Shown here piece after piece: positions 1 through 8,630 of a stretch of DNA of 9,519 nt. The notes below the pieces were generated by a model, which saw only the letters and a program-made list of their open reading frames with translations, was not told the DNA's origin and made no database searches. Position 1 is the first letter of the stretch, and the number at the start of each line of letters is the position of its first letter. Both the position numbers and the translations under genes were made by a program. Origin of the DNA: Candidatus Fermentibacterales bacterium (GTDB lineage Bacteria; Fermentibacterota; Fermentibacteria; Fermentibacterales; JAFGKQ01); NCBI GenBank assembly GCA_016928495.1, contig JAFGKQ010000087.1, positions 1-9,519 on the forward strand, read 5' to 3'.

Positions 1-377
1 ACCATCTCTCGACTCTGGGCCTCTGTCTGACGGGCGGATACAGGCTCCCCATCTCCTCGCCCGGCGTCTCGCTGAGACTGGGGGCCGGTGCAGATGTCTC
101 CTTCATGATGCAGGAGGTCCGCGATCCCTACCTCTCCTCGAACGCTAACGCTATCACGGTGGGGGCGATAGGGGATGCGACGCTCGAGCTGCTGCCTTGG
201 GATCATCTGGGTCTCCTGGCATCCGTGGGCGGCTATCTGGGAACCTCCGCCGGCTCCTGGGACCTGACAGACGAGTACGGCAGCCCGCGCGATGCTGAGC
301 CCGACGAGGTCTACTTCACGGAGCTGAGGAGGTCCCCGGTGAGGTTCGGAGCAGGGTTCTTCTATCTGATCTACTGA
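1..377 (+). CDS. Outer-membrane beta-barrel protein, C-terminal fragment
   Basis: The frame is open from the left edge (first whole codon at base 3) to a TGA at 375-377, giving 124 residues with no start inside; the ATG at 105 is internal. What is seen: alternating polar and hydrophobic stretches rich in Gly, Leu, Tyr and Ser, such as the segments around GGYRLPI, VSLRLGAGADVSF and GLLASVGGYLG, separated by acidic loops (DEYGSPRDAEPDEVYF). The final strand, VRFGAGFFYLIY, ends in an aromatic residue. That ending is the classical C-terminal signature read by the BAM machinery in outer-membrane barrels. I infer an outer-membrane beta-barrel protein of unknown specificity. It converges with the membrane-protein gene on the other strand, with 27 bases between the two stops and no convincing terminator there. 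Confidence 0.6.
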   Translation, partial: HLSTLGLCLTGGYRLPISSPGVSLRLGAGADVSFMMQEVRDPYLSSNANAITVGAIGDATLELLPWDHLGLLASVGGYLGTSAGSWDLTDEYGSPRDAEPDEVYFTELRRSPVRFGAGFFYLIY

Positions 378-1212: not shown

Positions 1213-3360
1213 ATGTCAGGGTCGAAGTCCGAAACTCTGATGGTTCCGGCAATGATCGTTTGTCTCGCGGTGCTCCCCCTGGCCCTGATGGGGTGTGGCC
1301 AGGACGAGCGGGAGCAGGCGGTCCGGGGGGATTCTCCGCTCATCCGTCTCGAGTCCGATGACCTCTGCGTTGTCACGATGCCACGCCCAGACGCTGATCT
1401 CGACAGCTCCGTGGTCCAAAACGGAAGCACCGTGGCCCACGTCGCCTTCCTGCTGGACACTCCAGTGGAGTTCACGCTGCTCCAGTGCCCTCTTCCGGGC
1501 GGCGTTCCGGAAGCCAGGCTGGAATTCCTCGACAGCCTCGGCGTCTACTCTGCCGGCTTCGACGCCCACGGGCTGCTTCACTATCAGGACTCGCGGGGCG
1601 CCTCCGTGATCGAGCGCATCTGGCCCAGAGGTGGATCCGAGGCCATCGTGCTGCGCGCTCGCGCGGAAGGCCTCTCCCAGTCCGTCCTCTCCTCCGGCTT
1701 CGACAGGACTCTGGCCGATGCGGGGCTGGAGCGCTCGCCCGCGGAGAGAGGCGTCTACCTATCCGATACCGATTCCGGGAGCCTCCTGGCGAGAGTGATG
1801 GACAGGGACGTCTCTCTTCCTCCCGAGCTCGACCACCGTCTCTACCTTCACCTCAGGCCCGACAGCGGGAGCCTCTCGGTCACGGACACGCTGACAGTCG
1901 TCTTCACCGGGGCTCCGGAGCACGGTCATCTCGCGCTCTGCATGCCTGCGGAAGGGACCATCACTGACATCGAGGGCTTCAGCACTCACAGCGCCGACAG
2001 CCTGCTGTGCCATCCCGACTCGCTCACCGGAAGCTACACGGGCGTCTTCCGGGCCGAGCTTGACCCCTTCTACGTCTCTTCCAGCTACGGGGACAGCGTC
2101 GTGGTCCGCGGCCAGGTGCGGCCCTCCTCCTCTTTCTGCGCGGAGCTCTGGTTCTACCCCGGCTCGGCTCTTCCGGAGGTCGGCTACAGCCGGGTCGCGG
2201 TCCGCGTGCCCGTGTTCCTCGAGGCCTGTGTTCCCATGAGGCTGGACAGCACGGTCTTCGAGGAAGACGAGGCCGTTTACTTCTATAGCTCGGGCCAGGG
2301 AGGCATGCGGGGCCAGCTCGCGTGGGCCGTCGACTCCTATACCAGGATAAGCATCGCCGGAGGCCGCTCGAGGCTGTACTATCCCTCCTCGTCGAGGCCC
2401 GAGGACAGGGAGCTGCTCCTCGCGGTGAGCGGCGCGGAGCTTCTGGCGGCCAGCATCTGGGACGAGCTTGGCTTCGAGGAGGCCGGGCTGGATTTCTACC
2501 TGGTGGATCCGCTGGTCGGGGAGGCCACCCTGAGGGGATCGGGCTGTCTTCTCGTGTCGGCCTCCAGACTGGCAGCGATTCCGGCCGCATCCGCCTGGCT
2601 GGACTCTCTTGTGGCAGGGAGCCGGCCGGAGGGGACTGATGTAGCGGCACGGGCCGCTCAGGCGTTCCTCGACAGGTCGACCTACCTCTCTCCCGAGCTC
2701 CGCAGCGTCCTTTCGGGCTACCTCGTCTTCCGCCTCGCGGAGCGGAGCAGCGAGCGAAGCGACGCTGGTTCGCTTCTCCGGGAGGCTCTCCTGAAGTACT
2801 ACCTGTTCGAGACCGAGCGCATCGGAGGCACCGAGTACGCGATCGCTGATCCGCAGCTCCTGGAAAGCCCACTCCGGGAAGCGGTTCTCCTTGGAAAGGG
2901 CCCTCTGGTGATGAGCTACCTCGCTTCGACGGTCGGCGGCTTCGAGAGCGGCCTCAGCAGGGGCCTGTCCAGCCTGAGGCATTCCGGTGACCCCTACCTG
3001 CGGTTCGAGTCCGCCATGAGGATCGGTCCAGGCTCGTTCGAGGAGGAGCTCTTCTACTCATGGCTGTTCGGGCCGGGGATCCCCCAGGTGAGCGTATGCT
3101 GGTCGGACTCGGCCGGAGGCATCCGGCTCGAGTCGAGACAGATACAGCCGGGACCCGACTTCCCTGTCGTCTACGAGGGCTGCCGCGTCATCCTGAGGGA
3201 CGGCACTACGCTCGACGCGAGGCTACCTCCTGACTATGGCGGGGGGTCGGTCTTCCTGCCGCTCGGGACCTCGTCGGGGGTAGTTGACGTGGTGGTCGAC
3301 CCCGAGTGCCTGATCCCGTGCGATTTCACCTATGAAAGGCTGGCTTCGGATGAAGATTGA
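1213..3360 (+). CDS. Lipoprotein resembling an M1 (gluzincin) aminopeptidase without the zinc site
   Basis: Seen: 715 residues from the ATG at 1213, with a hydrophobic segment ending in LALMGC, a good lipobox placing the acylated Cys at residue 28 (bases 1294-1296). The mature protein is therefore probably a membrane-anchored periplasmic or surface lipoprotein. Residues about 210-256 read like the N-terminal beta-saddle of M1 peptidases (RLYLHLRPDSGSLSVTDTLTV). About 425-455 resembles the start of the catalytic domain, 560-590 resembles the M1 stretch YxKGxLVLxxL (here LGKGPLVMSYL), and 613-627 (LFYSWLFGPGIPQVS) resembles the M1 segment with WL, G and P before a beta-strand domain ending in VVVDP (693-697). 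Missing: no HExxH anywhere, no downstream zinc Glu, and RGSGC (441-445) where GxMEN would be expected. If the relationship holds, it is a pseudopeptidase, perhaps a binding or scaffold protein. There is no clear Shine-Dalgarno; starts at 1240 or 1252 are possible. A TTG extension to 1174 would overlap the promoter. Its stop overlaps the next gene. Confidence 0.65.
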   Translation: MSGSKSETLMVPAMIVCLAVLPLALMGCGQDEREQAVRGDSPLIRLESDDLCVVTMPRPDADLDSSVVQNGSTVAHVAFLLDTPVEFTLLQCPLPGGVPEARLEFLDSLGVYSAGFDAHGLLHYQDSRGASVIERIWPRGGSEAIVLRARAEGLSQSVLSSGFDRTLADAGLERSPAERGVYLSDTDSGSLLARVMDRDVSLPPELDHRLYLHLRPDSGSLSVTDTLTVVFTGAPEHGHLALCMPAEGTITDIEGFSTHSADSLLCHPDSLTGSYTGVFRAELDPFYVSSSYGDSVVVRGQVRPSSSFCAELWFYPGSALPEVGYSRVAVRVPVFLEACVPMRLDSTVFEEDEAVYFYSSGQGGMRGQLAWAVDSYTRISIAGGRSRLYYPSSSRPEDRELLLAVSGAELLAASIWDELGFEEAGLDFYLVDPLVGEATLRGSGCLLVSASRLAAIPAASAWLDSLVAGSRPEGTDVAARAAQAFLDRSTYLSPELRSVLSGYLVFRLAERSSERSDAGSLLREALLKYYLFETERIGGTEYAIADPQLLESPLREAVLLGKGPLVMSYLASTVGGFESGLSRGLSSLRHSGDPYLRFESAMRIGPGSFEEELFYSWLFGPGIPQVSVCWSDSAGGIRLESRQIQPGPDFPVVYEGCRVILRDGTTLDARLPPDYGGGSVFLPLGTSSGVVDVVVDPECLIPCDFTYERLASDED

Positions 3361-3601
3361 GATCGCTCTGGAAAGCCCTCTGGAGAAGATCGCTGCCGGT
3401 CTGCTCTGCGGACTGATAGGGCTCGCCTGCCTCGCGGCCGTCTTCTCACTCATGGGTGGCGAGGCCCGGGCCGAGTGGGACAGCTCGAGCGCCTTCGGCG
3501 ACAGCTACTGCCTGGAGGAGATCGCTGACAATCTGGCCGACTGTGCCGCAGCCCTCGAGGACATCTCCTACACGCTCGACTCGATCGAAGGCCGCATATA
3601 G
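3350..3601 (+). CDS. Small membrane-anchored coiled-coil protein
   Basis: An 83-residue protein. I choose the ATG at 3350, not the one at 3332, because GAAAGG at 3334-3339 sits ten bases upstream and because this start gives a short cytoplasmic N-terminus followed by the membrane helix. It overlaps the end of the lipoprotein gene by 11 bases, so translation is probably coupled. Residues 14-35 form one hydrophobic segment. GEARA at 37-41 could be a signal-peptidase I site, but the weakly charged N-terminus makes a retained anchor equally likely. Residues 55-79 carry a perfect heptad pattern, L55-I58-L62-C65-L69-I72-L76-I79, so the acidic tail should form a coiled coil, most likely a homo-oligomer or a partner helix for another protein. 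Cys residues at 54 and 65 could be disulfide-bonded if the tail is periplasmic. No family is recognised. It may act with the lipoprotein. Confidence 0.62.
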   Translation: MKIEIALESPLEKIAAGLLCGLIGLACLAAVFSLMGGEARAEWDSSSAFGDSYCLEEIADNLADCAAALEDISYTLDSIEGRI

Positions 3602-3632: not shown

Positions 3633-3658
3633 ATGAGCACGCGGTGCAGGGCTGCGCT

Positions 3659-8630
<4,972 letters not shown>

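Follow-up and report, generated by a model that had tools for sequence, protein, structure and literature searches.

A predicted lipoprotein of Candidatus Fermentibacterota with the fold of M1 aminopeptidases and without their active-site residues

The M1 aminopeptidases, which include aminopeptidase N, ERAP1/2, IRAP, tricorn factor F3 and LTA4 hydrolase, have the same fold and the same order of domains I to III as the protein described here, which we call the pseudo-M1 protein. Shared features are a KG motif two residues past the position of the catalytic Tyr and a W..G.P segment before domain III, whereas the zinc site, the Glu base, the catalytic Tyr, the GxMEN motif and domain IV of the M1 enzymes are missing. 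Identity to M1 aminopeptidases is 10–14%, and unlike these enzymes the pseudo-M1 protein is a predicted lipoprotein with an added N-terminal domain. Catalytically dead homologues of M1 enzymes are already known. An example is TAF2 of TFIID, a scaffold with the M1 fold that belongs to a eukaryotic nuclear transcription factor and has neither a lipid anchor nor a MOG1/PsbP-like domain. A related case is the ribosome-associated yeast protein Tma108, an M1 homologue that is thought to bind protein N-termini non-enzymatically and of which the association with nascent chains requires a residue that binds the substrate N-terminus (PMC11266112). This precedent suggests that binding of protein N-termini, with no peptidase action, may be a task of an M1 homologue, but Tma108 retains all active-site residues but one, whereas the pseudo-M1 protein has lost all the aligned ones and carries a lipobox. 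Most of the dead peptidase homologues described in the literature consulted come from eukaryotes (PMC11266112), and a literature search, with most subscription journals outside its scope, returned no report of bacterial dead M1 proteins. As far as the collections searched show, a lipoprotein of this domain make-up, without a name in Pfam and NCBIfam and present throughout a phylum, is new. If the interpretation given below is correct, a bacterial lipid-anchored pseudopeptidase with the M1 fold would offer a clean example of a binding function built on an old enzyme fold, as well as a candidate core component of the envelope of organisms that are known mainly from metagenomes.

The gene is located in a window of 9,519 nucleotides, which is the whole stretch of DNA that was analysed (contig JAFGKQ010000087.1 of a Candidatus Fermentibacterales bacterium); its features are collected in Table 1. 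The large lipoprotein of 715 residues that an earlier note had recognized from the sequence is borne out by the open reading frame, by the lipobox (residues 25–28) and by its Cys, C28, which is unchanged in an alignment of 28 homologues that consists of the window protein and 27 others. The N-terminal hydrophobic stretch, the lipobox and the invariant Cys are those of a bacterial lipoprotein, and from the predicted attachment at the cell surface we infer a location in the envelope. The sequence motifs to which the note had drawn attention (KGxLV, WLxxxGxP and VDP) are found as KGPLV at residue 562, WLFGPGIP at 617 and VDP at 695. Its remark on a single His in the expected catalytic half also holds, since H590 is the only one of ten His residues that lies beyond residue 267.

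Table 1 Features of the pseudo-M1 gene and its surroundings in the window
Feature	Position	Strand	Basis
Pseudo-M1 open reading frame, 715 aa	1213–3360	+	Starts MSGSK; open reading frame
Predicted signal peptide and lipobox LMGC, with predicted lipidated Cys28	1213–1296	+	C28 invariance
Extra N-terminal domain, residues 40–203	1330–1821	+	Separate AF2 model, Foldseek, VIA
M1 domain I-like beta saddle, residues 204–394 (limits approximate)	1822–2394	+	AlphaFold, Foldseek, VIA, hhalign
Degenerate M1 catalytic (thermolysin-like) domain II, residues 395–622	2395–3078	+	Model, VIA, hhalign, catalytic columns
M1 domain III-like beta domain, residues 623–712	3079–3348	+	Model, VIA, hhalign
Residues 480–484 (RAAQA), opposite HExxH of active M1s	2650–2664	+	hhalign alignments, alignment columns
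Residues 538–566, most conserved segment, ending in the KG motif	2824–2910	+	9 of 29 columns invariant
Conserved neighbour, C-terminal part (full length about 440–475 aa in relatives)	3–377	+	Locus comparison
Divergent neighbour, 221 aa, hydrophobic, conserved across the phylum	408–1070	−	Locus comparison
GH57 alpha-amylase/4-alpha-glucanotransferase, downstream	3644–5725	+	Family search, loci
ligA (NAD-dependent DNA ligase), downstream, conserved neighbour	5722–7719	+	Family search, loci

Residues from about 201 to 710 share the fold of domains I–III of M1 aminopeptidases. The AlphaFold model of the protein (mean pLDDT 80.7, pTM 0.81) gave M1 aminopeptidases in all of the 50 Foldseek matches listed, with a best E value of 6.9e-20, and VIA-align superimposed model residues 190–710 on Anopheles APN1 over 462 residues (Z 18.6, 4.8 Å rmsd). 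This span corresponds to domains I–III, and the helical domain IV of M1 enzymes is absent. With hhalign, the profile of the 28 homologues matched nine M1 peptidases from outside the phylum with a probability of 97.5% (E 8.7e-12, 366 columns), a comparison that is not wholly independent because the family profile itself had found these nine sequences. They are the only matches, all weak, that this profile gave outside the phylum in a search of 385 genomes, and each of them lies in an M1 peptidase with an intact HExxH. The structural comparison is independent of that search. A larger mixed M1 set gave a similar result (97.2%, E 3e-11, 456 columns), and six controls, namely a reversed M1 alignment, GH57, LigA, a SerC-like family and two other neighbour families, remained at a probability of 0.3% or less, with E values of 0.18 or worse. 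The resemblance to M1 enzymes that the earlier note had spotted by eye thus stands in both of the comparisons by which it was to be checked, with M1 profiles and with predicted structures.

In comparisons with other M1 sets, fifteen short M1 sequences gave a moderate match only (65.5, E 6e-5), so that a more diverse set was needed, and four long M1 sequences from the same phylum gave no match (probability 0.6). At a threshold of E ≤ 1, none of the 28 homologues matched the Pfam M1 profiles PF01433 and PF17900; the Pfam M1 score of the active M1 of one relative is 111.8 bits. Pfam, NCBIfam and the PDB sequences, searched with the single sequence and with the profile, gave no meaningful match to the 715-residue protein, which is likely annotated as hypothetical because no Pfam or NCBIfam name applies. 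The kinship with M1 enzymes is visible only by profile–profile and structure comparison.

As the earlier note had observed for the window protein, the HExxH and GxMEN motifs are absent, and this extends to all 28 homologues, in which neither HExxH, nor G.ME[NH] as the search pattern for GxMEN, nor the complete HExxH-x18-E zinc site (aligned columns 480, 481, 484 and 499) was found. In the hhalign alignments the HExxH motif faces R480 (first His), A481 (Glu) and A484 (second His), while the distal Glu pairs with V499 and the catalytic Tyr with L560; these placements agree between the two more sensitive profile alignments, but at about 14% identity a single column may shift by about one residue. 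The homologues have E, R, G, N or A in column 480, A, T, G or S in column 481, A, G or C in column 484, and V, A, M or S in column 499, and column 560, two positions before the KG motif, is occupied by F, L, G, M, C or R, with Tyr in none of the 28. There is no His anywhere in columns 480–490, and H590 is the sole invariant His of domain II. Judged from these alignments, we consider it firmly established that all aligned catalytic and zinc-binding residues were lost.

The N-terminal domain, outside the M1 match, was modelled separately with an AF2 pLDDT of 84.5. The top Foldseek match of this model was PsbP (E 7.6e-4), and the matches include PsbP, LpqN, Mog1, DcrB and Eag chaperones, which have a similar predicted fold. 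The VIA comparison with cyanobacterial PsbP gave Z 8.6 over 124 residues, where noise is usually 7–8, and identity is about 12%. Despite a Z score that is barely above noise, the domain is probably MOG1/PsbP-like because one fold group dominates the rows listed, and it differs from the described members of this group by its fusion with a pseudo-M1 module. Five of the 28 homologues (L029–L033) have a shorter form of the domain, of about 121–128 residues instead of 164.

The gene was found in 40 of 42 genomes of Ca. Fermentibacterota that were examined, nearly always as a single copy. A scan of genome contigs with the window protein alone as query gave no match, whereas a closer alignment used as query was successful. 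Records named Candidatus Aegiribacteria and Candidatus Fermentibacteria contain close relatives of the other members, and the genome of the window belongs to their order. No match to the gene was obtained in G034 and G001. In G034, ligA is present and the contig ends about 0.4 kb upstream of it. In G001, searches for ligA and for the membrane-protein neighbour were negative as well (the latter search being without a positive control), so that the absence touches the locus or the assembly rather than the pseudo-M1 gene alone, and for this reason it was dropped as a clue to function. In two draft genomes the gene is present as two open reading frames (G041:C7:109144-110852 and G021:C183:2120-4130); the break in G021 contains N bases and the one in G041 resembles a frameshift, which may be an assembly error or real. 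The distribution in the phylum, together with the N-terminal domain and the conserved locus, goes beyond what was observed in the earlier note.

Loss of the active site and the two split genes, one with N bases at the break, might suggest an M1 peptidase gene of which only a remnant in decay is left. However, pairwise dN/dS values within one genus are 0.09–0.21 and the values by domain are all 0.36 or lower, thus well below 1, the gene is retained in nearly all genomes and 32 residues are invariant in the 28 homologues, so that decay was rejected and its probability is negligible. The protein is a homologue of a peptidase family that lacks the catalytic residues and is under selection, that is, a pseudopeptidase. 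Its near-universal retention suggests that a dead enzyme has been reused for holding or organizing molecules instead of cutting them. Such a protein may serve as a binder, a scaffold or an inhibitor, as already proposed in the earlier note.

The conservation is not evenly distributed, as 20 of the invariant residues are in the dead catalytic domain II, which also has the lowest mean entropy (1.41 bits). Invariant columns cluster in the segment of residues 538–566 (P 1.2e-6 when set against the entire protein and 1.6e-4 when set against domain II alone, values that are optimistic because the segment was picked after seeing the conservation). With hhalign, this segment aligns with the M1 stretch that bears the catalytic Tyr, which in M1 enzymes borders the active-site cleft; by homology, residues 538–566 would line the cleft in the pseudo-M1 protein as well. 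Structural constraints may explain why most of the invariant positions (Gly, Leu, Val, Ser) are kept. Since a lipid-anchored dead enzyme module under strong selection has to be explained, the best account is a membrane-anchored, non-catalytic binding protein with its ligand, perhaps a peptide, in the former cleft, to which we assign a probability of about 0.55. The lipid anchor would keep the protein, composed of M1 domains I–III with the extra domain in front, in the membrane, where it probably has a non-catalytic role in the envelope. The former active-site cleft would grip a ligand such as a peptide, the N-terminus of a protein or a partner protein without cutting it, and the N-terminal domain may supply a second contact.

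It is also possible, though rather doubtful, that the M1 fold has become a rigid framework for a surface scaffold with partners bound on the outside, as in TAF2, and an old cleft without function. In the present data such a scaffold would be hard to tell from a cleft binder, the aligned catalytic residues and GxMEN are all gone, and the N-terminal domain resembles a fold that occurs in assembly factors and chaperones. A ligand held in the cleft is nevertheless favoured because conservation peaks in domain II and at the old-cleft segment, and not in domains I or III or the N-terminal domain. Five polar residues (E541, D546, K562, H590 and S489) are invariant in the 28 homologues and several of these are in the segment beside the old site, which leads to the idea that the protein is still an enzyme with an active site rebuilt from them. 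This is improbable, as the zinc ligands that organize M1 chemistry have disappeared. We know of no precedent for a rebuilt active site in an M1 protein.

Another suggestion, to which we give little credence, is that the pseudo-M1 protein would be a regulatory partner of active M1 peptidases in the same cells, similar to the inactive alpha subunit of the mitochondrial processing peptidase. M1-domain matches were found in 18 of 19 relatives searched, and one HExxH-bearing M1 that was examined has a Por-type secretion tail. On the other hand, no M1 gene adjoins the pseudo-M1 gene, the kinds of active M1 differ among genomes (some have the long kind only) while the pseudo-M1 gene is kept, and genome G018 has the pseudo-M1 gene and no M1 match. 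The Por_Secre_tail domain itself gave 24 to 109 matches per genome in G000, G001, G005, G007, G009, G016 and G034, an abundance which suggests that the phylum has a type IX-like secretion system. A link of the pseudo-M1 protein with Por-tail proteins is speculation. A fusion of a lipid-anchored M1 module to a MOG1/PsbP-like domain might be envisaged as a phylum-wide envelope receptor or chaperone for peptide or protein ends, possibly serving Por-tail proteins, but this elaboration of the binding role is put forward tentatively and is in itself unlikely.

In most loci examined, the order of genes is neighbour (+), membrane protein (−), pseudo-M1 (+), GH57 (+) and ligA (+). The first neighbour, truncated in the window, is full length in loci L053, L057 and L066 and precedes the membrane-protein gene in the majority of loci. 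Its family has no Pfam or NCBIfam match, and it may be an outer-membrane protein, with a start that by eye resembles CsgG/TolB. The product of the divergently transcribed gene, also without Pfam or NCBIfam match, is probably an integral, multi-pass membrane protein, to judge from its sequence. In L029–L033 (genera g7 and g8), which have the shortened N-terminal domain, there is no GH57 gene at this place and ligA directly follows the pseudo-M1 gene. In L005 the position after the pseudo-M1 gene is taken by a serC-like gene. In the window, a small open reading frame of 89 aa (3332–3601, + strand) overlaps the 3′ end of the pseudo-M1 gene, and the C-terminal half of its translation is 57% identical to L005 at 3752–3871.
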